Source: Kineococcus xinjiangensis (GTDB lineage Bacteria; Actinomycetota; Actinomycetes; Actinomycetales; Kineococcaceae). From it: 64,000 nucleotides of DNA. How positions within the stretch are numbered: position 1 is the first letter of the stretch; each line of letters begins with the position of its first letter. Shown piece after piece: positions 32,332 through 47,030 of the stretch. The translations under genes were made by a program, and so were the position numbers. The stretch is taken from contig NZ_PTJD01000003.1 in assembly GCF_002934625.1 (NCBI RefSeq), positions 186,001-250,000 of the forward strand, in the 5' to 3' direction. The notes under the pieces are model-generated. The model did no database searches and was not told the origin of the DNA. It worked only from the letters and a program-made list of their open reading frames with translations.

Positions 32332-32954
32332 GCGTGGATCCCGGAAGCGTGGATCCCGGAAGCGTGGATCCCGGAAGCGTGGATCCCGGAAGCGTGGATC
32401 CCGGAAGCGTGGATCCCGGAAGCGTGGACGCGACGGACGGTGCGCAGGCGGCACCGGGCCCGCGGGTCGACTGGGAGGCGCTGCGGGCGGCGGCGCGGGA
32501 GGCCGCGGAGCGGGCCTACGTGCCCTACTCCCGCTTCCCCGTCGGCGCTGCGGCGCTCGTCGACGACGGCCGCGTCATCAGCGGCTGCAACGTCGAGAAC
32601 GCCTCCTACGGGCTGACGCTGTGCGCGGAGTGCACCCTCGTGGGGCAGTTGCGCATGAGCGGTGGCGGCCGACTGGTCGCCTTCGCCTGCGTGGACGGCG
32701 CCGGTGGGGTGCTCATGCCGTGCGGGCGCTGCCGGCAGTTGCTGTGGGAGTTCGGCGGGCCCTCGCTGCTGGTGGACTCCGCGCGCGGAGTGGTGGCGAT
32801 GACGGAGGTCCTGCCGGACGCCTTCGGGCCGGCGGACCTCGAGGACGAGGCGCGACGCGCGCCGGAGGACGACGGGGCGCGACGCGCACCCGGCAACGAC
32901 GAGACGCGCCGGGCCCCTGCGGGCCGGACCGGTGCGGGGGGAGTGCAGGAGTGA
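32328..32954 (+). CDS. cdd: Cytidine deaminase with repeat-encoded N-terminal extension
   Basis: The enzyme (208 aa from GTG 32328) deaminates cytidine and deoxycytidine. Zinc ligands and the proton-shuttle Glu are in LCAEC and PCGRCRQLL, and GCNVENASYGLT is the substrate loop. Homology begins only at RAAAREAAERAYVPYSRFPV. Before it lie six perfect VDPGS pentapeptides, each beginning with GTG and therefore a possible start. After the roughly 130-residue core there is a C-terminal tail with three RRAP-containing repeats. The first GTG overlaps the permease stop, which favours translation of the whole repeat. Ordinary Cdd is 125-140 aa. Confidence 0.88.
   Translation: MSVDPGSVDPGSVDPGSVDPGSVDPGSVDPGSVDATDGAQAAPGPRVDWEALRAAAREAAERAYVPYSRFPVGAAALVDDGRVISGCNVENASYGLTLCAECTLVGQLRMSGGGRLVAFACVDGAGGVLMPCGRCRQLLWEFGGPSLLVDSARGVVAMTEVLPDAFGPADLEDEARRAPEDDGARRAPGNDETRRAPAGRTGAGGVQE
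32334..32423 (+). repeat. Six exact tandem copies of a 15-bp unit GTGGATCCCGGAAGC
   Basis: The copies start at 32334, 32349, 32364, 32379, 32394 and 32409. The unit is a multiple of three and in frame with cdd, encoding Val-Asp-Pro-Gly-Ser. A seventh partial GTGGA follows at 32424. Perfect identity suggests recent expansion. Confidence 0.95.
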
Positions 32955-34234
32955 GCCAGCAGTTCGCGGCGGTCGACGTCATCCGCACCAAGCGGGACGG
33001 CGGCGCGCTGAGCGACGCCCAGATCGACTGGGTCATCGACGCCTACACGCGCGGGGAGGTCGCCGAGGAGCAGATGTCGGCGCTGGCGATGGCGATCCTG
33101 CTGCGGGGCATGACCCGCGCGGAGATCAGCCGCTGGACGCGGGCGATGATCGCCAGCGGTTCGCGGCTGGACTTCTCCGGGCTGCCCCGCCCCGCGGTCG
33201 ACAAGCACTCCACCGGTGGCGTCGGCGACAAGGTGACCCTGCCGCTGGCGCCGCTGGTGGCCGCCTGCGGCGCGGCCGTGCCGCAGCTGTCCGGCCGCGG
33301 CCTCGGCCACACCGGCGGGACGCTGGACAAGCTGGAGTCCGTCCCGGGCTGGCGCGCGGCGCTGAGCCTGGACGAGGTCGACGCCCAGCTGCGCGACGTC
33401 GGCGCCGTCATCTGCGCCGCCACCGCCGACCTGGCGCCGGCCGACCGCAAGCTGTACGCCCTGCGGGACGTCACGGGCACCGTGGAGGCCGTGCCGCTCA
33501 TCGCCAGCTCCATCATGAGCAAGAAGATCGCCGAGGGCACCCGGGCGCTCGTGCTCGACGTGAAGGTCGGCTCGGGGGCCTTCATGAAGGACCTCGACCT
33601 CGCGCGGGAGCTGGCGACGACGATGGTCGCGCTGGGCACCGACGCCGGGGTCGAGACCCGCGCCCTCATCACGGACATGTCGACCCCGCTGGGCCGCACC
33701 GCCGGCAACGCCCTGGAGGTGCGGGAGTCGGTGGAGGTCCTCGCCGGCGGTGGCCCCGCCGACCTCGTCGAGCTCACCGTGGTCCTCGCCCGGGAGATGC
33801 TCGACGCGGTGGGGATCCGCGACGTCGACCCCGCCGACGCCCTGCGCGACGGGCGGGCCATGGACGCGTGGCGGCGGATGATCGCCGCCCAGGGCGGGGA
33901 CCCGGACGCGGAGCTGCCCACCGCCAGGCACACCCACGTCGTCACCGCCGAGGCCGACGGGGTGCTCAGCACGGTCGACGCCCTCGCGGTGGGCGTGGCC
34001 GCCTGGCGCCTCGGTGCCGGCCGCGCGCGCCGGGAGGAGGCCGTGCAGGCGGGTGCGGGGGTGGAGCTGCACGCCGTGCGCGGTGAGCGGGTGCGCGCCG
34101 GTCAGCCGCTGCTGACCCTGCACACGGACACCCCGGAGCGCTTCGAGTGGGCGCTGCAGGCGCTCGAGGGCGGCATCGCCGTCGGCGGTGGGGCGGCGGC
34201 GGTCCCGCTGGTGCGGGAGCGCATCACCGCCTGA
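32951..34234 (+). CDS. deoA: Thymidine/pyrimidine-nucleoside phosphorylase
   Basis: The enzyme (427 aa) splits thymidine and deoxyuridine with phosphate to base plus deoxyribose-1-phosphate, taking the deoxyuridine made by Cdd. Visible are the signature SGRGLGHTGGTLDKLES, the phosphate loop DKHSTGGVGDKVTLPLAP and SKKIAEGTRALVLDVKVGSG. GTG 32951 overlaps the cdd stop. It is the last gene of the transporter-cdd-deoA operon. Confidence 0.95.
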   Translation: MSQQFAAVDVIRTKRDGGALSDAQIDWVIDAYTRGEVAEEQMSALAMAILLRGMTRAEISRWTRAMIASGSRLDFSGLPRPAVDKHSTGGVGDKVTLPLAPLVAACGAAVPQLSGRGLGHTGGTLDKLESVPGWRAALSLDEVDAQLRDVGAVICAATADLAPADRKLYALRDVTGTVEAVPLIASSIMSKKIAEGTRALVLDVKVGSGAFMKDLDLARELATTMVALGTDAGVETRALITDMSTPLGRTAGNALEVRESVEVLAGGGPADLVELTVVLAREMLDAVGIRDVDPADALRDGRAMDAWRRMIAAQGGDPDAELPTARHTHVVTAEADGVLSTVDALAVGVAAWRLGAGRARREEAVQAGAGVELHAVRGERVRAGQPLLTLHTDTPERFEWALQALEGGIAVGGGAAAVPLVRERITA

Positions 34235-35651: not shown

Positions 35652-36797
35652 ATGGCAGCTGACGTCCCCACCCCCACCGCGGACCTGCTCGACACGGTCC
35701 GCGCGCTCCCCAAGGTCTCCCTGCACGACCACCTCGACGGCGGCCTGCGCCCCGAGACGATCGTGGAGATCGCCTCGGCGAACGGTCACGCGCTGCCGAC
35801 GACGGATCCCGACGAGCTGCGCGAGTGGTTCCGCACCGCGGCCGACTCCGGGTCGCTGGAGCTGTACCTGGAGACCTTCGCCCACACCACCGCCGTGATG
35901 CAGGACGCCGAGTCCCTCGCCCGCGTCGCCACCGAGACCGTCCTGGACCTCGCCGCCGACGGCGTCGTCTACGGGGAGCTGCGCTACGCCCCCGAGCAGC
36001 ACCTCACGCAGGGCCTGAGCCTGGACGAGGTCGTCCTGGCGGTCGAGGAGGGTTTCCGCCGCGGTGAGCAGCTCGCCGCCGAGCAGGGCCGCACCATCCG
36101 GGTCGGCACCCTCGTGACCGCGATGCGCCACGCCGAGCGGGGCCTGGAGATCGCCGAACTGGCCCTGCGACACCGTGACGCCGGCGTGGTCGGCTTCGAC
36201 ATCGCCGGCGCCGAGGCCGGTTTCCCCCCCACGCGCCAGCTCGAGGCGTTCCGGATGCTGCACGAGGGGGAGTTCCCCGTCACCATCCACGCCGGTGAGG
36301 CCGCGGGCCTGGAGAGCATCCGCGAGGCGGTCGCCGTCTGCGGCACCCAGCGCATCGGCCACGGCGTCCGCATCGTCGACGACATCGAGGTCCTCGGCGG
36401 GACGGACGACGCCGGCCGCCCCCGGGTCCGCCTGGGGCGCACCGCGTCCTGGGTGCGCGACCGGCGCATCCCGCTGGAGCTGTGCCCCACGAGCAACGTC
36501 CAGACGGGGGCCGCGAGCAGCGTGGCCGAGCACCCGGTGACGCTGCTGAAGGACCTGCGCTTCCGGGTCACCGTGAACACCGACAACCGCCTCGTCTCGG
36601 GCACCTCGCTGAGCCGGGAGTTCGCGCTGCTCGTCGAGCAGGCCGGCTGGACGCTGGACGACGTGCGCTGGGCGACGACGAACGCCGCGCGCGCCGCCTT
36701 CCTGCCCTACGACGAGCGCATCCGCATCATCAGCTCGGTCGTCGAGCCCGGCTTCGCCGCCGCCCAGGGGCGCACCCCCCGCCACGCGGCGGGCTGA
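35652..36797 (+). CDS. add: Adenosine deaminase
   Basis: The enzyme (381 aa) deaminates adenosine and deoxyadenosine to inosine forms, which purine nucleoside phosphorylase (46130) can then split. Zinc and catalytic residues are in [29 protein letters not shown] and [21 protein letters not shown] is also typical. The length is slightly above the E. coli enzyme because of an insert around [19 protein letters not shown]. The ATG start is fixed by the adjacent -10. Confidence 0.94.
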
Positions 36798-36920: not shown

Positions 36921-37721
36921 CTACGAGCGGACGGTGCTGCTGCGGCGCAGCGGGAACAGCCAGCCCGGGTCCGGCGCGGAGCCCTCGGCCAGGCCCGGAA
37001 CCTCCCCGGCCAGCGGCGCCAGCACCACCCGGTCGTGCTCCGCCGCGGCGACCCGCAGGGCCCGCAGCGCGCCCTCCTCCAGGCCCGCACCACCGCGGGC
37101 GTCCACGGCGTCCACCCCGGGGGCGAGCCGGTCCAGCACGCCCAGCCGCCCCGCCCCGCTGCCCTGGGGGACCGTCACCAGCCCCACCGGGATGCCCGCC
37201 ACCACCGAGGCGTCCGCCAGCTGCAGCGCCGCGCCGGTGCCGCCGGGGCCCGGCACGAGGACGCACGCCCCGCCCGCCACCAGCACGGGAGCCAGCACCG
37301 ACACCGCACCGAGGAGGACGTGCGTGGTGGGGGCGAGGGTGAGCACCACCCCGGCGCTGCGCTCCACCACCCGCCCCCGCGAGGTCACCGGGGCGGGCAG
37401 CAGGTCGAGCTTGTCGGACCACCCGGCCCACCACACGAGCCGGTCCACCGCGGCCTCGACCTCACCCAGCGCCGCGGAGAGCGGCCGGCCGCTGCGGCGC
37501 AGCTCGCTCACGAAGGGGCCGCGGCGCCCCTCGACCTCCGCGGCCAGCGCCGCCAGCGCCCGTCCACGCGCCACCGGGGCCAGCCGCCACCACTCCTGCG
37601 CCGCCGCCGCGGCCGCGGCCAGCAGCTCCGCCGGCTCGCGGGGCGCCGTGCGCGCACCGCCGCCCAGCGGGGGACGGGAGGGGAGGGACCGCAGGACCCG
37701 GGCCCCGGCGCGCTCAGCCAC
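36921..37721 (-). CDS. Truncated aldehyde-dehydrogenase-like protein (N-terminal half only)
   Basis: A protein of 266 aa. Helical segments and WWAGWSDKLDLLPAPV resemble the N-terminal cofactor domain of ALDH proteins, followed by VLTLAPTTHVLLGAVSVLAP and AGIPVGLVTVPQGSG. The protein stops where the catalytic domain should start, so the LELGGK Glu and the GQxC Cys are missing. It starts at GTG 37721, overlapping the stop of the second ALDH-like gene by eight bases. Function unknown; catalysis is unlikely. Confidence 0.65.
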   Translation of the reverse strand: MAERAGARVLRSLPSRPPLGGGARTAPREPAELLAAAAAAAQEWWRLAPVARGRALAALAAEVEGRRGPFVSELRRSGRPLSAALGEVEAAVDRLVWWAGWSDKLDLLPAPVTSRGRVVERSAGVVLTLAPTTHVLLGAVSVLAPVLVAGGACVLVPGPGGTGAALQLADASVVAGIPVGLVTVPQGSGAGRLGVLDRLAPGVDAVDARGGAGLEEGALRALRVAAAEHDRVVLAPLAGEVPGLAEGSAPDPGWLFPLRRSSTVRS

Positions 37722-39081
37722 GGAAGGCCGCCATCTGCGCCAGGACGGCCACCGGGGCCCACGCGTCGTCCCCGCCGGGACCGGTGCGCACGCTGCGCAC
37801 GCCCGGCACGTCCGCCAGGTGCGCGACCTCGGCAGCCGGGGCGCCCCAGACCCGCACCTCGACGGCCCCGGCGGCGCCGTAGCGGGCGAGGTCGGCCGCG
37901 GCGGCAGCCGTCGACGGGGCGCTGCGCAGGGCCACCACCGGCCCCGGCGGCGGCAGGGCCGGGCGGCGCCCCGCCTGGCGCAGCACGCCGGGAGGGCACC
38001 ACCAGCCGCCCAGCGGCACCGTCCGCGGCACGCGCGCGCCCAGTGCGGCGACCGCATCCGCCGCCAGCTCCGGCGACGGGCACGGCCCGACGTCCGTGGC
38101 GCGGTCCAGCGGGTCCCCCAGGCGCAGGCCGTCGGCGGCCTCCTGCAGCGCCGGGGCGAGCTCGTCGAGGACCGCCTGCGGCGCCAGCACCAGCGTCCCG
38201 CCCGGCCGGCCGGCCGCCCCCTCGCGCAGGGCAGCGGTGAGCGCGGGCAGGACCTCGCCCAGGTCGGCGGCGGGCAGCACCACCTCCGCCGTGAGGGCGT
38301 CCGGGTCCGCGCTCAGCACCGCTCCCCGTTCCGCCATCGCCACCCGCAGCGCCCGCAGCTCCTCCGCCCGGCCACCGGCGCGGACGGCCCCCACCCCGCG
38401 CAGCAGGGCGGCGTCGGCCTCGGCGGCGGAGCCGGGCAGCACCGTCACCAGTCCGGCGGGCAGCCCGGCGCGCTCGGCGGCCTCGGCCAGGCGGTGCGCC
38501 AGGGGAGCGGCGGGCGGGCGCGGGCGCAGCAGGACCGCGTTGCCGCAGGCCAGGGCGGCGACGGCGGTGACCACCAGCGCCGCCGGCGACGTGCGCCAGC
38601 CGGCGAGGACGGCCACCAGACCCACGGCGGCACCCCCCAGCGGCGCCCAGTCGAGCTTGTCGGCCCACCCGGCGGCGGAGAAGGCGCGGTCGGGGAGCTG
38701 CTCGGCCTCCGCGAGGGCGAGGGCGGCCGGGCGCCCCCGCGTGAGGGCGTCGGTGGCGGCCAGCGGGCGCACCTCGGTGGCGAGGGCGTCGACGAGGGCG
38801 AGGAGGTGGCGGGCGCGGTCGGCGCTGCCGGCCCAGGCCCAGGCCTCGTCGCGGGCGCGGGCGGCGGCGTCCAGGCCCCGCTCGACGTCGGCCGGCAGCG
38901 CCTCGGCCACCTCCGCGAGGACCGAACCTGTGACGGGGTCGGGGAGCGGGGAGACCGGGCCGCCGGTGGCGGCGGGTCCGGGGACGACGACCGGGTACCG
39001 CGGCAGGAGGCCGGCTGCGGAGCGGAGGGCCCCGGCGGGGCGCACCTCCGTGCCGTCCGCGGTGGGTGGCAGCCCCGTCAC
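37714..39081 (-). CDS. Degenerate aldehyde-dehydrogenase-like protein lacking the catalytic Cys
   Basis: A protein of 455 aa with overall ALDH layout. AAGWADKLDWAPLGG and ALACGNAVLLRPRPPAAPLA stand for the Rossmann part, AERAGLPAGLVTVLPG is well conserved, and LRLGDPLDRATDVGPCPS is the ALDH GDP-GP segment. The catalytic Cys region reads AAGRPGGTLVLAPQAV with no Cys, and no LELGGK equivalent is visible. The start is GTG 39081. With the gene at 36921 it forms a two-gene unit divergent from the PHP gene. In other actinomycetes paired ALDH-like genes sit near deoC, as I recall; none is here. Confidence 0.7.
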   Translation of the reverse strand: MTGLPPTADGTEVRPAGALRSAAGLLPRYPVVVPGPAATGGPVSPLPDPVTGSVLAEVAEALPADVERGLDAAARARDEAWAWAGSADRARHLLALVDALATEVRPLAATDALTRGRPAALALAEAEQLPDRAFSAAGWADKLDWAPLGGAAVGLVAVLAGWRTSPAALVVTAVAALACGNAVLLRPRPPAAPLAHRLAEAAERAGLPAGLVTVLPGSAAEADAALLRGVGAVRAGGRAEELRALRVAMAERGAVLSADPDALTAEVVLPAADLGEVLPALTAALREGAAGRPGGTLVLAPQAVLDELAPALQEAADGLRLGDPLDRATDVGPCPSPELAADAVAALGARVPRTVPLGGWWCPPGVLRQAGRRPALPPPGPVVALRSAPSTAAAAADLARYGAAGAVEVRVWGAPAAEVAHLADVPGVRSVRTGPGGDDAWAPVAVLAQMAAFRG

Positions 39082-39151
39082 GCAGCGCAGTCTACGGTCG
39101 GGGAGGCCGCCCGGCGGGAGGACCGGCGCGGGAGGCGCGGCGGCCGGATGG

Positions 39152-39163: not shown

Positions 39164-40723
39164 GTGCCCGCGCACCCCCACAGCCACCTGCCCGGTCCCG
39201 TCCAGGAGGCCCCCAGCGACGGCGACGACCGGCGCTTCTCCTGGTACGCGGGGGACCACCACATCCACACCACGTTCTCCCGCGACGCGATGTACACCAT
39301 CGACGACCAGGTCCGGCGCGGGCAGGAGTGCGGCCTGGACTGGATGGTCATCACCGACCACGGCGGCCCGGACCACCAGAAGCTCTCCGTTGCCCGGCAG
39401 GCCCCGGAGATCGCCGCGGCCCGCGAGCGGTACTCGCCGCTGGTGTTCCAGGGGCTGGAGTGGAACATCCCCGGCGCGGAGCACGCCACGGTCATCGTGC
39501 CCCCGCACGAGCGGACCGTGCCGTTCCTCGAGGAGTTCGAGCGGCGCTGGGACGGCGACATCCTCGCCGCCGCCTCCAACCCCGCGGGCCCGCGGCTCCT
39601 GCGGCACTCCACGGAGGGCGGGGAGCTTGCCCGCCGGCTCGGGCTGGAGGCACTGGCGTGGATGTGCGCCGAGCTGGAGCGCGGCACCGTCGACACCGCC
39701 CTCGTCCTCGGCAACCACCCCATGCGCACCGGCCGTCTGGACCCCTCGCGCATCCGGCAGTGGCGCGACGCCGCCCCGGGCGTCTTCGTCGGCTGGGAGG
39801 GCGCACCCGGCCACCAGGCCGCGGCCCTGCCCGAGCCGTACAGCCGGGCGCGTGGGCGCGGGCAGTACGACGAGTTCCCCGGGCCGCTGTCCTTCCCCGG
39901 CTACGACGTCGACCAGTACCGCACCTGGGGCGGTTTCGACGCGGCCACCGCCCGGGTCGGCGGGTTGTGGGACAGCCTGCTCGCCGAGGGACTGCCGTGG
40001 TGGATCACGGCGAACTCCGACAACCACTTCGACCACATGGACACCGTCGTCGTCGGCGAGCCGTCGCGGGCGTTCTACGAGGAGCACGGCCACCGCGGCG
40101 TGCCGGTGCAGACCGGCACCCCCCAGCACGGCTACGTCGACTTCGCCCCCGGCTTCTACAGCCGCACCTACGTCGGCGCGCAGAGCCGCGACCACCGCGC
40201 GGTGATGGCGGCGCTGCGCACCGGGCGGGTGTTCGTCACGCACGGCGGGCTGCTCGACGCGATCGAGGCGAGGGTGCGGCCCGGAACCGGCCCGGGGGCG
40301 TCCGGCCCGGGGGTCACCTTCGGGTCTCGCCTGCGCATCGACCGCGGCGACGACGTCCACGTGGAACTGCTGCTGGACCCGGCCTCCGTCCCGAACGGGG
40401 CGGGGGAGGTGCCGCGGGTGGCGCGCATCGACGTCATCGCCGGCACGGTCACCGGCCGGGTCGCGGACGCCGACGCGGACCTGTTCGAGGCACCGGGGAC
40501 CCGGGTCGTCGAGACGTTCGAGGTGCCCGCCCGCGCCCGCGGCCGGCAGCGGTTCGAGTTCGTGCTGCGCGGTGTCGCCGATCCGCTGTACCTGCGGTTC
40601 CGGGCGAGCGACGGCCGGCACTGCCGCGACGACGGGCACCCCCTGGTGGACGTCATCGGCGACAGCGACCCGTGGGACGACCTCTGGTGCTACACGAACC
40701 CGGTGTTCGTCGACGTCGGCTGA
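39164..40723 (+). CDS. PHP-domain metal-dependent phosphoesterase
   Basis: A protein of 519 aa. PHP metal-binding motifs are present: AGDHHIHTTFS near the N-terminus, WMVITDHGGPDH, a Glu in QGLEWNIPGAEHATVIV, LGNHPMRTG and the C-terminal TANSDNHFDHMD. The last 120 residues form a beta-rich accessory domain. No signal peptide is visible. PHP domains hydrolyse phosphate esters; the substrate is unknown. The same frame is open far upstream (antisense to the ALDH genes), but homology begins at FSWYAGDHHIH and GTG 39164 is preceded by CAGGGT. Confidence 0.82.
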   Translation: MPAHPHSHLPGPVQEAPSDGDDRRFSWYAGDHHIHTTFSRDAMYTIDDQVRRGQECGLDWMVITDHGGPDHQKLSVARQAPEIAAARERYSPLVFQGLEWNIPGAEHATVIVPPHERTVPFLEEFERRWDGDILAAASNPAGPRLLRHSTEGGELARRLGLEALAWMCAELERGTVDTALVLGNHPMRTGRLDPSRIRQWRDAAPGVFVGWEGAPGHQAAALPEPYSRARGRGQYDEFPGPLSFPGYDVDQYRTWGGFDAATARVGGLWDSLLAEGLPWWITANSDNHFDHMDTVVVGEPSRAFYEEHGHRGVPVQTGTPQHGYVDFAPGFYSRTYVGAQSRDHRAVMAALRTGRVFVTHGGLLDAIEARVRPGTGPGASGPGVTFGSRLRIDRGDDVHVELLLDPASVPNGAGEVPRVARIDVIAGTVTGRVADADADLFEAPGTRVVETFEVPARARGRQRFEFVLRGVADPLYLRFRASDGRHCRDDGHPLVDVIGDSDPWDDLWCYTNPVFVDVG

Positions 40724-40744: not shown

Positions 40745-42220
40745 TCAGCCGACCCGGCGCCACTCGCCGCAGGACTCGGAGCTGAACAGGACGTCGGTGG
40801 GCAGGATCTCGACGGTGACGGGGCCGTCGGCGTAGTCGCCCTCGATCTCGGCGCCCCGGTCGTGGGTCGCGTCGCGGCCCCGCACCCAGCGGCACAGCTC
40901 CTCCGGTCGCTCGGCGGCGTACCGCCCGGGAGCGATGTCGACGCCCACGAGGTGGTCGCCCTCGCCGAACACGTCCTGCAGGTCCGGGGTGCGGTCCACG
41001 GGGACCCAGCCGCCGCAGCGGGTGCTGGAGAACCGCCGGTCGCTCGGCAGCAGTTCGACGATCGCCGGTCCCGCGCCGAAGGAGTTCGCGAGGAGCCCGT
41101 CGGATTCGCGCCCGAGCGCGCTGTCGCGCTCCCAGTAGCACTCCTCGCCGTCGATGCCGACGGCCCGGTAGACGCCGGGGAGGACGGTGTCGCCGACGAG
41201 GTGGTCCCCGTCGGGAACGGGCGGGCCCAGCGGGTCCGGCTGCCCGTCCTCCCGCGTCCACTCCCCGCACTCGTGCGAGGTGAACAGCACGTCCCCGGGC
41301 TTGATCTCCACGACTGCGTGGGCCAGTCCCGCCTCGATGTCGATGGTGTCGTCGCGGCCCTGGGCGGCACTGCTGCTGCGCTTCCAGAAGCAGTCGGCGG
41401 TGCTGCTGCCGGCGGTGTAGACGCCCGGGGCCACGTCGATGCCGACGAGGTGGTCGCCGTCGCCGATCGTCTCCCGCACCTGCGGGGTGGGGTCCACGGG
41501 CACCCAGCCGCCGCACCGGCTGGTGTTGAACCCGTAGTCGCCGGCCAGCACCTCCACGACCGCGGAACCGGGGCCCGCACCGTTGACGATGATCGCGTCG
41601 GCGTCGTCGCCGGGCCCGCTGGTGCGCTCCCAGTAGCAGTTCTCCCCGGCCGGGGTCAGGCTGCGGTAGAGGCCGGGCTGGACGCTCTCCCCGACGAGGT
41701 GGTCGCCGTCGGGGAGGGCGTCGGCGGGCAGGGCGGGGCCGCCGGGGAGCGGTACTCCTCCGCCGTCCTCCTCGACGTCCTCGTCCCGGTTCGCGGCGGA
41801 GGAGTCGCGCACGTCCTGTGCGACGAGGATCCAGAAGGCGGTCGACCCGACACTGGCGAGGAGGGCCAGCGAGCTCAGCACGATCGACAGGGCCATCAGC
41901 CCCGCCCGTGCCCTGCGCCGCAGCGCCACGACCGCCAGGACGACCCCGGCCGCGCCGAGGAGGAAGCCGAGCACGGGCGCCAGGCCCAGGACGAACGCGG
42001 TGCAGCTCACCACGAGCGCGGCGACCGCGATGCCGGGCAGCGGGGAGGAGGCGGGAGGGGTCTGGGGCGGACGGGTCGGGGCGTGGGCGCCGCTCCCGTA
42101 GGGCGTGGACCCGTGGGGCGTGAACTCGTGGGGCCCGGTTCCCGGGGGCGTCGGCCCGCCGGGCCCCTCCGGCCGCGGCGCGTAGGGGTCCTTGCGCAGG
42201 TCCAGCGGCTCGTCCCTCAT
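40745..42220 (-). CDS. Membrane protein with four extracellular Cys-containing repeats
   Basis: A protein of 491 aa. A Pro-rich cytosolic N-terminus (about 65 residues) leads to about three helices (70-150, DUF4190-like spacing), an acidic linker, then four repeats of 70-75 residues. Each runs DGDHLVG-x4-PG-x-Y, then a C-x-W motif, then a GD/SD turn and a final S-x-x-CG-x-W. Repeats 1 and 3 end CGGWVPVDxTP, and 2 and 4 end CGEW, so the array is A-B-A-B. The two Cys per repeat probably form a disulfide outside the cell. Function unknown; it may bind envelope material. ATG 42220 has a G-rich GGGGGGA site before it. Confidence 0.72.
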   Translation of the reverse strand: MRDEPLDLRKDPYAPRPEGPGGPTPPGTGPHEFTPHGSTPYGSGAHAPTRPPQTPPASSPLPGIAVAALVVSCTAFVLGLAPVLGFLLGAAGVVLAVVALRRRARAGLMALSIVLSSLALLASVGSTAFWILVAQDVRDSSAANRDEDVEEDGGGVPLPGGPALPADALPDGDHLVGESVQPGLYRSLTPAGENCYWERTSGPGDDADAIIVNGAGPGSAVVEVLAGDYGFNTSRCGGWVPVDPTPQVRETIGDGDHLVGIDVAPGVYTAGSSTADCFWKRSSSAAQGRDDTIDIEAGLAHAVVEIKPGDVLFTSHECGEWTREDGQPDPLGPPVPDGDHLVGDTVLPGVYRAVGIDGEECYWERDSALGRESDGLLANSFGAGPAIVELLPSDRRFSSTRCGGWVPVDRTPDLQDVFGEGDHLVGVDIAPGRYAAERPEELCRWVRGRDATHDRGAEIEGDYADGPVTVEILPTDVLFSSESCGEWRRVG

Positions 42221-42299
42221 GTCGTCCCCCCGCACCCCGACGCGGAACTCCCGCGCCTCGTCGTCGTCCTCGTCACCACGCCCGGGGGAAGCCCGGATC

Positions 42300-42330
42300 C
42301 CGTGCCTGCATCCGGGCGGTGCAGGCACGG
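42300..42330 (-). terminator. Hairpin after phosphosugar mutase gene
   Basis: CCGTGCCTGCA (42300-42310) pairs with TGCAGGCACGG (42320-42330), an 11-bp perfect stem with a nine-base loop, just downstream of the mutase stop on the minus strand. Confidence 0.65.
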
Positions 42331-42343
42331 CCGGCCCGCCGCC

Positions 42344-44095
42344 TCAGCCCAGGCCGGTGGCAGCGGCGATGTCGCGGCGCAGCGCCTGCAGTGCCTCCGC
42401 GGCCCTCGCGCGTGCGGCGGGGAGGTCCCCGTCGACGGGCACGACGACCTCGCAGTAGCACTTCAGCTTCGGCTCGGTGCCGCTCGGGCGCACGACCACG
42501 CGGGCCCCCGCGGCGGTGCGGAAGCGCAGCCCGTCGGTGGGGGGCAGCCCGTCCACTCCCTCGGCCAGGTCCTCGGTGCCGGTGACAGCCGCCCCCGCCA
42601 GTTCCGTCGGCGGGGTGCTGCGCAGGCGGGCCATCGCCTGCGGCACCAGCGACAGGTCGTCCACCCGCAGCGACACCTGCCCCGTGGCGTGCAGCCCGTG
42701 CCGCTCGGCGAGTTCGTCGAGGACGTCCGTGAGGCCCCTGCCGTCGCGGCGCAGCGCCTGCGCGGCGCGGGCGACGAGGACGGCGGTGCTGATGCCGTCC
42801 TTGTCGCGCACCACGTGCGGGGCGACGCAGTAGCCGATGGCCTCCTCGTAGCCGAAGGCGAGGCCGGGGACCCGGGCGATCCACTTGAAACCGGTCAGCG
42901 CCGGGCCGAACGGCAGACCGTGGTGGGCCGCGATCTGCTGCAGCAGCTGGGAGGAGACGACGGAGCAGGCGAGCACCGCGCCGGCGGGCAGGCCCTCCTC
43001 CGACAGCAGCCCCGGCCTGGCCATGCACTCCGCCAGCAGGCAGCCCAGCTCGTCACCCGTGAGCACCCGCCAGGAACCTGCCTCGGGAACCGCCACGCAG
43101 CAGCGGTCGGCGTCCGGGTCGACGGCGAGGAGGAGGTCGGCGTCGCGCTCGGCGGCCAGCGCCAGCGCCCGGTCCAGCGCACCGGGCTCCTCGGGGTTGG
43201 GGAAGGCCACCGTCGGGAAGTCCGGGTCCGGCTCGGCCTGCTCCGCGACCACGGCGACGTCGTCGAACCCGCTGCGGCGCAATGCCTCCAGGAGGACCTC
43301 GCCGCCGACCCCGTGCAGCGGGGTGGCGACCACGCGCAGCGCCGGTCCGTCGGTGGTGCCGCCCACCGCGCCGGTGACCGCGTCGAGGTAGCGCTGCAGC
43401 GCCTCCTCGCCGAGCGAGGTCCAGCCGCCGTCCGGGCGCGGCAGGTCGGCGAGGCGCCCGACCGCGTCGATGGCGGCGGCGATCCCGGCGTCCGCGGGCG
43501 GGACGATCTGCACGCCGCGGCCCTCCTCGCTCGCGGCGCGGCCCCCGAGGTAGACCTTGTAGCCGTTGTCCTGCGGCGGGTTGTGGCTCGCGGTCACCAT
43601 CACCCCGGCGTCGGCGTCCAGGTCGCGCACGCAGAACGCCAGCACGGGGGTGGGCAGCGGCCGGGGCAGCAGCAGCACCTCGCAGCCCGCGCCGGTGAGC
43701 ACCGAGGCGGAGTCGGCGGCGAAGTCGGCGGAGCCGTGGCGGGCGTCGTAACCGACGACCACGCGCGGGCGGGCGCCGTCGAGGGTGCGGACCAGCCAGG
43801 AGCCCAGCCCGGCGGCGGCGCGCTGCACCACGGCGCGGTTCATCCGGCGGGGGCCGGCCCCGAGGGCACCGCGCAGGCCGGCGGTGCCGAACTCCAGGAA
43901 GCCGGAGAAGCGGTCGGCGAGGTCGGCGAGGGCCGCGGGGTCGTCGTCCTCGGCGCGGGCGAGGACCGCGGCCAGTTCGTCGCGGGTGGCGGTGTCGGGG
44001 TCGTCGGCCATCCAGGCGCGCGCCCGCTGCAGCAGGGAGTCGAGCTGCCGCGCGCGCTCGCCGTCGAGGCGCGGGGTGGGGTCGTCGTGGGTCAC
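42344..44095 (-). CDS. Phospho-sugar mutase (phosphomanno/phosphogluco/phosphopentomutase type)
   Basis: A protein of 583 aa. The phosphoserine is in VMVTASHNPPQDNGYKVY, the Mg site in LAVDPDADRCCVA, the sugar loop in GYEEAIGYCV and the phosphate loop in VRPSGTEPKLKCY. The EFGTAGLRG entry motif and the length match the PGM2/phosphopentomutase branch rather than short PMM. Next to purine nucleoside phosphorylase, and in a cluster that makes ribose- and deoxyribose-1-phosphate, conversion to the 5-phosphates is a likely role (inference). The start is GTG 44095, six bases after TAGGGT. Confidence 0.88.
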   Translation of the reverse strand: MTHDDPTPRLDGERARQLDSLLQRARAWMADDPDTATRDELAAVLARAEDDDPAALADLADRFSGFLEFGTAGLRGALGAGPRRMNRAVVQRAAAGLGSWLVRTLDGARPRVVVGYDARHGSADFAADSASVLTGAGCEVLLLPRPLPTPVLAFCVRDLDADAGVMVTASHNPPQDNGYKVYLGGRAASEEGRGVQIVPPADAGIAAAIDAVGRLADLPRPDGGWTSLGEEALQRYLDAVTGAVGGTTDGPALRVVATPLHGVGGEVLLEALRRSGFDDVAVVAEQAEPDPDFPTVAFPNPEEPGALDRALALAAERDADLLLAVDPDADRCCVAVPEAGSWRVLTGDELGCLLAECMARPGLLSEEGLPAGAVLACSVVSSQLLQQIAAHHGLPFGPALTGFKWIARVPGLAFGYEEAIGYCVAPHVVRDKDGISTAVLVARAAQALRRDGRGLTDVLDELAERHGLHATGQVSLRVDDLSLVPQAMARLRSTPPTELAGAAVTGTEDLAEGVDGLPPTDGLRFRTAAGARVVVRPSGTEPKLKCYCEVVVPVDGDLPAARARAAEALQALRRDIAAATGLG

Positions 44096-44107: not shown

Positions 44108-44184
44108 GGGGGTCGGCCTCACCCGTCCGGCCCAGCGCGCGCAGCAGCGACGAAAAGCCGAGGCGGTGTGTCCGAGGTCACCCC

Positions 44185-44190
44185 TACGGT
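44185..44190 (+). promoter_or_regulatory. Leaderless -10 element (TACGGT) for DrrA-like gene
   Basis: TACGGT is six bases before ATG 44197, with no ribosome site between. Confidence 0.6.
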
Positions 44191-44196
44191 CGGGAC

Positions 44197-45249
44197 ATGG
44201 CGGAGACGGAGGCAGTGGTTGCACGAGGGTTGGTGAAGCGGTACGGGAAGGTCACGGCCCTGGCGGGCGTGGACCTGGTGGTGCCCCAGGGCACCGTGCT
44301 CTCCCTGCTCGGCCCGAACGGGGCCGGCAAGACGACGACCGTCCGGATCCTGACGACGCTGCTGGAGCCCGACGAGGGCAGCGCGACCGTCGCGGGCGTC
44401 GACGTGCTGCGCGAGCCGCGCCAGGTGCGGCGGCGCATCGGCCTGTCGGGCCAGTACGCGGCGGTCGACGAGCACCTGACGGGGTTCGAGAACCTGGACA
44501 TGGTGGGGCGGCTCTACCACCTGGGGCGCAGGCGCAGCCGTGAGCGCGCCCGGGAGCTGCTGGAGCTGTTCCGGCTGACCGAGGCCGGCGACCGGCCGGC
44601 GAAGACCTACTCCGGCGGCATGCGCCGTCGCCTGGACCTGGCGGGGGCCCTGGTGGCCGAGCCGCCGGTCCTCTTCCTCGACGAGCCGACGACGGGGCTG
44701 GACCCGCGCAGCCGCATGGACATGTGGGACCTGCTCTCGCAGATGGTCCGCGGCGGCACGACGCTGCTGCTGACGACGCAGTACCTGGAGGAGGCCGAGC
44801 GCCTCGCCGACGACATCGCGGTGATCGACCACGGCCGCGTCATCGCCCGCGGCACGGCCGACCAGCTCAAGGACCAGGTCGGCGGCGAGCGCATCGAGGT
44901 CGTCGTGACCGAGGACGCCGGCGTCGAGGCCGCCCGTGCCGCGCTGCAGGCGATCGCGGTGGGCGAGGTGGTCGTGGAGCGGCACTCCCGCCGGCTGGTC
45001 GCGCCGGTCTCCGGGGGCGCCGCGTGCCTCGTGGAGGCGCTGCGGCGGCTGGACTCCGCCGGGGTCGGCATCCTCGACGCCGGTCTGCGCCGGCCCACGA
45101 TGGACGACGTGTTCCTCAGCCTCACCGGACGTCCGGCGGAGGAGGACGTCGAGGGCGGGCAGGGCAGCCCCGGCGCGGTGCCGGGCGGTCCTCCCGCCCA
45201 GCGCAGGATCGACCTGGACCAGGACGCCTCGACCGGAATGCGGAGGTGA
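44197..45249 (+). CDS. DrrA-like ABC exporter ATP-binding protein
   Basis: A protein of 350 aa. Walker A is GPNGAGKTTT, the signature YSGGMRRRLDLAGAL, Walker B VLFLDEPTTGLDPRSR and the switch TTQYLEEAERLAD. The QYLEEAE form and the C-terminal extension with PTMDDVFLSLTG are characteristic of the daunorubicin-resistance (DrrA) exporter group. Real substrates of such pairs vary, so drug export is not implied. It pairs with the permease four bases downstream. Confidence 0.92.
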   Translation: MAETEAVVARGLVKRYGKVTALAGVDLVVPQGTVLSLLGPNGAGKTTTVRILTTLLEPDEGSATVAGVDVLREPRQVRRRIGLSGQYAAVDEHLTGFENLDMVGRLYHLGRRRSRERARELLELFRLTEAGDRPAKTYSGGMRRRLDLAGALVAEPPVLFLDEPTTGLDPRSRMDMWDLLSQMVRGGTTLLLTTQYLEEAERLADDIAVIDHGRVIARGTADQLKDQVGGERIEVVVTEDAGVEAARAALQAIAVGEVVVERHSRRLVAPVSGGAACLVEALRRLDSAGVGILDAGLRRPTMDDVFLSLTGRPAEEDVEGGQGSPGAVPGGPPAQRRIDLDQDASTGMRR

Positions 45250-45253
45250 CGCG

Positions 45254-46066
45254 GTGAACGCGGTGCTCGGCGCACTGGCGGACGGCTCGGTCGTCGCCAA
45301 GCGCAACCTCATCCACATCAAGCGGGTGCCCGACCTGCTCATCGGGACGCTGATCTCCCCGATCATGTTCATCCTGCTGTTCGCCTACGTCTTCGGCAGC
45401 GCGATCCCGGCGCCGGACGGGGTGAACTACCGCGAGTGGCTGGTCCCGGGCATCTTCGCCCAGACGGTGATCTTCGGCGGCACCATCACGGGCATGGGGC
45501 TGGCGACGGACATGCAGAAGGGCATCATCGACCGGTTCCGCTCGCTGCCCATGGCGCAGCCGGCCGTCCTCATCGGCCGCACGAGCAGCGACGTGGTCAC
45601 CAACATCCTGACGATCGCCATCATGGCGGCCACCGGCCTCGCCGTGGGGTGGCGGATCCGCACGTCGATCCCCGAGGCGGTCCTCGGCTTCGCCCTGCTC
45701 CTGCTGTTCGCCTACGCGGTCTCCTGGGCGATGGCCTACATCGGCCTGCTGGTGCGCACCCCCGAGGCCTTCCAGTCGCTGACGTTCCTCACCGTCTTCC
45801 CGGTGACGTTCATCGCCAACACGTTCGTGCCGATCGACAACTTCCCGACCGTGCTGAAGGTCGTGGCGGACTGGAACCCCGTGTCCTCGCTCGTCCTGGC
45901 CACGCGGGAGCTCTTCGGCAACGTCGGCCCGGCCGGCCTGGTGCGGGCGCCGGAGGCGTGGTCGCTGCAGCACCCCGTCGCGTACACCCTGATCTGGGTC
46001 GCGCTCATCCTGCTGGTGTTCGTGCCCGTCGCGAGCCGTCAGTACAAGCGGGCCACGTCCCGCTGA
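45254..46066 (+). CDS. DrrB-like ABC-2 exporter permease
   Basis: An ABC-2 permease of 270 aa with six helices. VAKRNLIHIKRVPDLLIGTL, followed by ISPIMFILLFAYVFG, is the family N-terminus, and MQKGIIDRFRSLPMAQPAVL is the conserved loop. PVTFIANTFVPIDNFPTVLK follows helix 5. GTG 45254 lies downstream of GGAGGTGA at 45242-45249. Confidence 0.92.
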   Translation: MNAVLGALADGSVVAKRNLIHIKRVPDLLIGTLISPIMFILLFAYVFGSAIPAPDGVNYREWLVPGIFAQTVIFGGTITGMGLATDMQKGIIDRFRSLPMAQPAVLIGRTSSDVVTNILTIAIMAATGLAVGWRIRTSIPEAVLGFALLLLFAYAVSWAMAYIGLLVRTPEAFQSLTFLTVFPVTFIANTFVPIDNFPTVLKVVADWNPVSSLVLATRELFGNVGPAGLVRAPEAWSLQHPVAYTLIWVALILLVFVPVASRQYKRATSR

Positions 46067-46129: not shown

Positions 46130-47017
46130 TCAGAGCAGCGGCACGAGCTCCGCGAGGAGGCGCGCGCAGCGCGGTGCGGCCTCGCGGCCGGCCTCCAGCA
46201 CCTCCGTGTGCGACAGCGGCGTCTCCTGCACGCCCGCCGCGAGGTTGGTGACCAGCGACAGCCCCAGGACCTCCATGCCCGCGTGCCGGGCGGCGATCGC
46301 CTCGAGCGCGGTGGACATCCCGACGAGGGTGCCGCCCATGATCCCGGCCATCCGGACCTCGGCGGGGGTCTCGTAGTGCGGGCCGGGCATCTGCACGTAG
46401 ACGCCCTCGGTGAGACCGGGGTCCACCGTGCGGGCCAGCTCCCGCAGCCGGGAGGAGTAGAGGTCGGTCAGGTCCACGAAGGTCGCCCCCTCCAGCGGGG
46501 ACTGCCCGGTGAGGTTGATGTGGTCGGAGATGAGCACCGCCGAGCCGGGAGCGACGGCCGGGTCCAGCCCGCCGCAGCCGTTGGTCAGCACGACGGTGCG
46601 GCATCCGGCGGCCGCGGCGGCGCGCACCCCGTGGGCCACCGCGCGGACCCCGCGGCCCTCGTAGAGGTGGGTGCGGGCCCCCACCACGAGGGCGCGCAGC
46701 GGCTCGGCCCCCTCCCGGGGCACCGACAGCGAGCGCAGCGTCCCCACGTGCCCGGAGACCACCGGCTTGGAGAAACCGGGCACCTCCGAGGCGGGGACCT
46801 CCGCCACGACCTCGCCGATCCGGTCGGCGGCCGCGGCCCAGCCCGACCCCAGCACGAGGGCCACGTCGTGGGTGGCCACCCCCGTCAGCTCCGCCAGCCG
46901 GGCCGCGGCCTGCGCCGCGAGCTCCTGAGGGTCCGGGCCGGGGGCGGATCCGCTGGGGCGGTCCGCGCTCGCCGCGTCGGTGGGGGAGGGGGCGGTGTTC
47001 AGGGCGTCGTCGTCCAC
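46130..47017 (-). CDS. punA: Purine nucleoside phosphorylase (trimeric type)
   Basis: A protein of 295 aa. The phosphate loop LVLGSGWAAAADRIGE, GHVGTLRSL, the base-binding LTNGCGGLDP with ISDHINLTG, and the signature MPGPHYETPAEVRM are all present. It splits inosine and guanosine (and deoxy forms) to base plus sugar-1-phosphate, linking add with the phosphosugar mutase. GTG 47017 is preferred because TAGGGT (47025-47030) is seven bases upstream. GTG 47026 would overlap that hexamer but cannot be excluded; it adds three residues. Confidence 0.92.
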   Translation of the reverse strand: MDDDALNTAPSPTDAASADRPSGSAPGPDPQELAAQAAARLAELTGVATHDVALVLGSGWAAAADRIGEVVAEVPASEVPGFSKPVVSGHVGTLRSLSVPREGAEPLRALVVGARTHLYEGRGVRAVAHGVRAAAAAGCRTVVLTNGCGGLDPAVAPGSAVLISDHINLTGQSPLEGATFVDLTDLYSSRLRELARTVDPGLTEGVYVQMPGPHYETPAEVRMAGIMGGTLVGMSTALEAIAARHAGMEVLGLSLVTNLAAGVQETPLSHTEVLEAGREAAPRCARLLAELVPLL

Positions 47018-47024
47018 GGCCGAC

Positions 47025-47030
47025 ACCCTA
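47025..47030 (-). promoter_or_regulatory. Leaderless -10 element (TAGGGT) for punA
   Basis: Minus-strand TAGGGT ends seven bases before GTG 47017. Nothing else was recognised in 47031-47219. Confidence 0.5.

Follow-up and report, generated by a model that had tools for sequence, protein, structure and literature searches.

A split ALDH16 that has probably become a pseudoenzyme in the nucleoside-salvage locus of Kineococcaceae

Genes at the locus

The window analyzed here, a 64-kb stretch (64,000 nucleotides) of a Kineococcus xinjiangensis contig, contains two overlapping reverse-strand genes whose products resemble aldehyde dehydrogenases (ALDHs). The upstream gene (37714..39081, GTG start) encodes P0001, a protein of 455 amino acids that matched Pfam family PF00171 above the cut-off (120 bits) over profile positions 13 to 315 of 461. 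The downstream gene (36921..37721, also with a GTG start) encodes P0002, of 266 amino acids, which matched the same profile above the cut-off (61 bits) over positions 33 to 195. The AlphaFold2 model of P0001 (mean pLDDT 78.9, pTM 0.81) had an ALDH fold, and bacterial ALDH16 was among its top fold matches in the PDB (6mvu ranked second; TM-score 0.80 by query for 6mvr/6mvu); because its alignment contained only distant intact relatives, the model is biased toward that fold and tells little about the pocket. The model of P0002 (pLDDT 74.6, pTM 0.74, first 27 residues low) matched one part of many ALDH structures.

The two reading frames overlap by 8 bases (37714..37721, reverse strand; GTGGCTGA), which span the GTG start of the downstream gene and the TGA stop of the upstream one. 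An overlap of the same length, with GTG at its start and TGA at its end, was present in all 10 family members read; recurring as it does with the losses described below, it is no chance event, and it strengthens the proposal of an earlier note on this DNA that the two proteins are probably made together. A TAGACT box (39089..39094, reverse strand) lies 7 to 8 bases 5' of the GTG start of the upstream gene. It was found at that distance in 10 of 10 family members with a complete gene and, by eye, in one more (G011), and looks like the -10 element of a leaderless transcript.

The gene order in the window was PNP, pmm, ALDH pair, add, deoA: a purine nucleoside phosphorylase-family gene (PNP_UDP_1; 46130..47026, reverse strand), a phosphoglucomutase/phosphomannomutase-family gene (pmm; 42344..44095, reverse strand), the pair, a conserved adenosine deaminase gene (add; 35652..36797, forward strand), and a thymidine phosphorylase gene (deoA; 32621..34234 as the ORF is listed, forward strand, its true start probably further in). 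A PHP-domain gene (39164..40723, forward strand) is divergent from the pair and occupies the side where deoC sits in relatives. Two reverse-strand ORFs flank pmm: one of 527 amino acids between the PHP gene and pmm (40745-42328), without a Pfam match, in whose translation visual inspection showed several repeats, around GDHLVG and CGGWVPVD, and one of 417 amino acids (44119-45372), without a Pfam or NCBIfam match and with one match of about 53% identity in a single family stretch (L046).

The enzyme encoded by deoC, deoxyribose-phosphate aldolase, releases acetaldehyde as one of its products. No deoC match was found at the window locus or in ten family stretches (L043-L052, of which L048-L050 are short). 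PF01791 had at least one match in each of the 12 family genomes; the only one in the host genome was a short DeoC of the TIGR00126 type, encoded elsewhere (L071, 222-2949) after a LacI-like ORF and before a HAD-phosphatase-like ORF (names by eye).

Descent from a split ALDH16

The best PDB match of both proteins was a bacterial ALDH16 (Loktanella LsALDH16; PDB 6mvr, 6mvs, 6mvu): in 6mvr/6mvu, P0001 corresponded to residues 44 to 421, within the first ALDH domain, and P0002 to residues 532 to 702, within the second, incomplete one. In a 54-row tree, the upstream proteins of the family, their intact counterparts, and the N-halves of ALDH16 formed one clade (95/86), and the family downstream proteins, intact downstream proteins, and ALDH16 C-halves formed another (100/100); these groupings are strong, with an artefact possible given the long branches and unusual composition flagged by the program. 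The pair shares with bacterial ALDH16 the combination of an ALDH domain and a cofactor-binding-type domain without a catalytic domain, after which the second module ends, and relatives of LsALDH16 share the deoC setting. Whereas LsALDH16 is one fused, active chain, the modules here are encoded by two overlapping genes, a split common to intact actinobacterial relatives, and the N-module is without catalytic residues. On these alignments and groupings, the pair represents orthologs of the two ALDH16 halves in split form, that is, an ALDH subunit and a short cofactor-binding-domain subunit.

Gene neighborhoods told a similar story. A search with P0003, an intact homolog of the downstream protein encoded by the order relative G015, matched 851 plasmid records; among five opened, three annotated alphaproteobacterial records carried a fused ALDH16 of 786-793 amino acids directly behind deoC, the other two being one in which the gene was absent from the record's list (L074) and a Nonomuraea record with no annotated genes shown there (L076). 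Of 24 loci searched, 20 had deoC upstream of the ALDH gene (17 of them within about 130 bases), and the remaining four held ordinary ALDHs with 36-40% identity. In Geodermatophilus-type loci, pmm was found upstream of the pair and add and deoA downstream, and L084 showed a PNP gene too; because PNP, pmm, pair, add, and deoA follow in the same order, the window locus is the same locus. The intact split deoC-ALDH-ALDH pairs of other actinobacteria (e.g., Geodermatophilus and Agrococcus; L077-L098) are direct orthologs with the same order of long gene before short and the same setting with pmm, add, and deoA. They differ in keeping FNQGxVCCAG, LELGGK, PWNF, E(I/V)FGPV, and deoC, all of which are lost in the host family.

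The earlier note had also stated that the downstream protein stops before any catalytic domain, and the profile positions given above, the alignment of relatives, and the model all agree; its reading of this as a loss does not hold. A partner was readable in 16 of 18 order relatives (the available stretches of the other two, L065 and L069, contained no partner); it is equally short, terminating just past the cofactor-binding-type region in a tail like ETKTVWHPKG, and the C-terminal half of fused ALDH16 is short as well. The short downstream protein is therefore ancestral, and the idea of a truncated gene copy was rejected. The AGWxDKLD sequence remarked upon in both proteins is present, but it is an ordinary motif, found in both partners of intact relatives too, and was set aside as a special feature.

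Loss of the active site and retention of the genes

In the alignment columns, Asn169, Glu268, Cys302, and Glu399 were kept in 18 of 18 order relatives, and all four were lost in 10 of 10 family members (residue numbers, here and for Lys192, Glu195, and Cys303, follow ALDH2-type numbering). The P0001 equivalents were Arg163 for Asn169, Arg292 for Cys302, Pro293 for Cys303, and Pro377 for Glu399. Across the 10 members, the replacements of Asn169, Lys192, and Cys302 by Arg and of Cys303 and Glu399 by Pro were invariant; Glu268 was replaced by Asp, Arg, or Gln and Glu195 by Pro or Ala, and the SPFGGYKESG stretch was missing. These results bear out what had been noticed in the upstream protein, namely, the absence of LELGGK and of the active-site Cys: the alignment with deoC-associated ALDHs placed AAGRPGG where relatives show GHVCCAG, and no Cys in the active site. 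P0001 thus has the PF00171 match and the ALDH fold and lacks the residue set of active NAD(P)-dependent ALDHs (Asn169, Glu268, Cys302, and Glu399), and none of the 10 family members has the catalytic Cys and Glu that the N-module of bacterial ALDH16 carries (PDB entry 6mvu is titled as C295A, an active-site mutant). With every catalytic residue gone, the sequence rules out that the pair oxidizes aldehydes by the known mechanism.

The upstream gene was completely read in 10 of the 12 family genomes (the host and nine others); it runs off the contig in G011, and the G003 contig, on which the neighboring PHP match starts at base 8, gives no view of the pair. The downstream gene was likewise read in 10 of 12, contig ends interrupting it in G008 and in G007, the latter having the pair spread over two contigs. 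At the order level, 22 of 79 genomes, including four of the family, were matched at E <= 1e-25; at the class level, 167 of 296 genomes were matched at E <= 1e-40, and the loci read were 29 of the best 30 rows, the own genome apart. Outside the family, NQGxVCCAG was found in 71 of 75 loci read (genome G015 counted twice), the other four being ordinary ALDHs. As far as seen, the active-site loss is family-wide and, among the loci read (29 of them at the class level), limited to the host's family, although losses may have occurred independently elsewhere; it is in this same family that deoC has left the locus. No hidden intact ALDH16 was found in the 12 family genomes, host included, where the best match to the intact N-subunit had 46% identity versus at least 70% for intact actinobacterial orthologs, and no relatives were found in viral contigs.

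The former catalytic positions now carry new invariant residues (W162-R163, R292-P293-G294-G295, and P377-P378-P379-G380) in a family of about 43% identity, as might be expected if the pair had acquired another active site on the ALDH scaffold and a chemistry other than that of an aldehyde dehydrogenase. By reading of the alignment, however, the invariant residues include no recognizable nucleophile, acid/base, or metal-site set, and fixation is common regardless, with 27 of 94 fully changed columns fixed. New chemistry is accordingly very improbable. Arginines now stand where Asn, Lys, and Cys once did, which suggests an anionic ligand, but the arginine-lined pocket does not stand out statistically: a new residue was fixed in 4 of 6 catalytic or cofactor columns, no significant excess over other changed columns (p = 0.06).

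Whether the pair is being kept or lost was judged from its substitutions. By codon position (first/second/third), four close pairs differed by 13/10/93, 31/22/118, 40/39/154, and 37/41/143 substitutions in the upstream gene and by 10/6/43, 12/14/60, 10/7/37, and 33/30/78 in the downstream gene. In these pairs, dN/dS was 0.09-0.20 for the upstream gene and 0.11-0.32 for the downstream gene, compared with 0.04-0.16 for neighbors; in more distant pairs it was about 0.5-1.0, with dS probably saturated. Mirror-tree analysis gave an upstream-downstream partial correlation of 0.76, which is not pair specific, as upstream-add gave 0.88. The pair evolves about 1.5 to 4 times faster than its neighbors (mean distances of 0.30 and 0.40 versus 0.13, 0.10, and 0.20), the stem branches in the 54-row tree were 1.78 (upstream family) and 1.09 (downstream family), and composition has shifted strongly: A+G+P+R made up 45-54% of the family upstream proteins versus 35% of one intact protein, and F+Y+M+I+N+K only 1-3% versus 19%.

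The fast evolution, the extreme compositional drift of the upstream proteins, and the lost deoC linkage would all suit a slowly decaying relic, one that lost its job when deoC departed, is still drifting, and has open frames simply because stop codons seldom arise in GC-rich genomes. We regard such a relic as unlikely, since the third-position bias was seen in all four close pairs for both genes, close-pair dN/dS was low, the GC content of the upstream gene by codon position still stood at 0.83-0.89/0.60-0.64/0.94-0.99, and overlap, start, and TAGACT box were kept in 10 of 10. Because frames, overlap, box, and third-position-biased substitutions are conserved, the pair appears not to be decaying and to be under purifying selection. 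The long stem and the composition shift fit strong relaxation followed by weaker constraint, and the fairest summary would be a burst of change at the loss of catalysis, then retention under moderate constraint. Of the earlier suggestion of a relic of the deoC-linked actinomycete pair, the descent is upheld by tree and loci, and both purifying selection and the intact frames in relatives contradict the word relic; the case that the note had named as refuting, a pair unique to this strain and decaying, was rejected by the same family-wide evidence, the pair being kept with the same losses across the family.

A putative heteromer and its possible role

Our preferred explanation, which we consider probable, is that a split ALDH16 turned pseudoenzyme in the host's family and that the pair is a putative heteromer with a binding or regulatory role. 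The sequences show orthologs of the two ALDH16 halves, which elsewhere sit beside deoC, the second half having no catalytic domain in intact relatives either; in the host family, the first half has lost all catalytic residues and deoC has left, with the two genes staying overlapped behind a conserved promoter-like box, under purifying selection, inside the nucleoside-salvage locus. In a review, the short domain of ALDH16 is described as letting two chains mimic an ALDH tetramer; the coupled pair therefore most likely continues to assemble into a heteromer of this type, the short subunit standing in for the usual partner of an ALDH dimer. Such a heteromer may be a binding or regulatory protein, not one that oxidizes acetaldehyde, and its arginine-lined former active site might hold a phosphorylated sugar, a nucleotide, or a cofactor. 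Of the functions remaining, such a role at the nucleoside-salvage locus would be the most economical.

ALDHs form dimers and tetramers, and the host genome contains 11 other strong PF00171 matches, so the upstream protein could in principle be a decoy subunit that hetero-oligomerizes with another cellular ALDH or DeoC and inhibits or scaffolds it. Pseudoenzymes that regulate active enzymes are known in principle, as noted in a review. This is nevertheless rather improbable, as the protein no longer has the C-terminal SPFGGYKESG region and the overlapping gene supplies a dedicated partner.

The binding or regulatory heteromer that we prefer has a possible parallel in human ALDH16A1, an animal protein and a single fused chain, likened here to the pair by its description. 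It is described as an ALDH16 member without the whole catalytic triad that is thought to act via protein-protein contacts, with a proposed link to HPRT1 and purine salvage (PMC10650815). Judged from sequence alone, the host-family pair is likewise an ALDH16 member without the catalytic triad; the two losses were presumably independent. We infer a bacterial ALDH16 pseudoenzyme, convergent with human ALDH16A1, that may serve a structural or regulatory role in its locus. A bolder version, tentative at best, is that a whole actinobacterial family turned an acetaldehyde dehydrogenase that served in breaking down deoxyribose into two noncatalytic proteins that together sense a ligand or act as a scaffold in nucleoside salvage. 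The pair would then be an independent bacterial counterpart of ALDH16A1, with three invariant arginines (163, 186, and 292) lining the former active site and binding an anionic metabolite there.

In the literature searched, subscription literature being outside its scope, no paper on a split or noncatalytic bacterial ALDH16 was found. The job of human ALDH16A1, an enzyme relative without an active site, is unclear, and the host-family pair looks like an independent bacterial case of such a loss. Sister families still carry its ancestral active form, with locus and nucleoside-salvage setting unchanged, and comparing the two offers a direct view of the surface that was kept once catalysis had gone. 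With only two genes involved, expression and deletion should be easy. At the class level, very small genomes of 1.2-1.4 Mb in one family (f44; e.g., G143, G202, and G230) retain an ALDH16-like upstream protein, and its three loci among the 29 read (L122, L128, and L138) contain the short partner.
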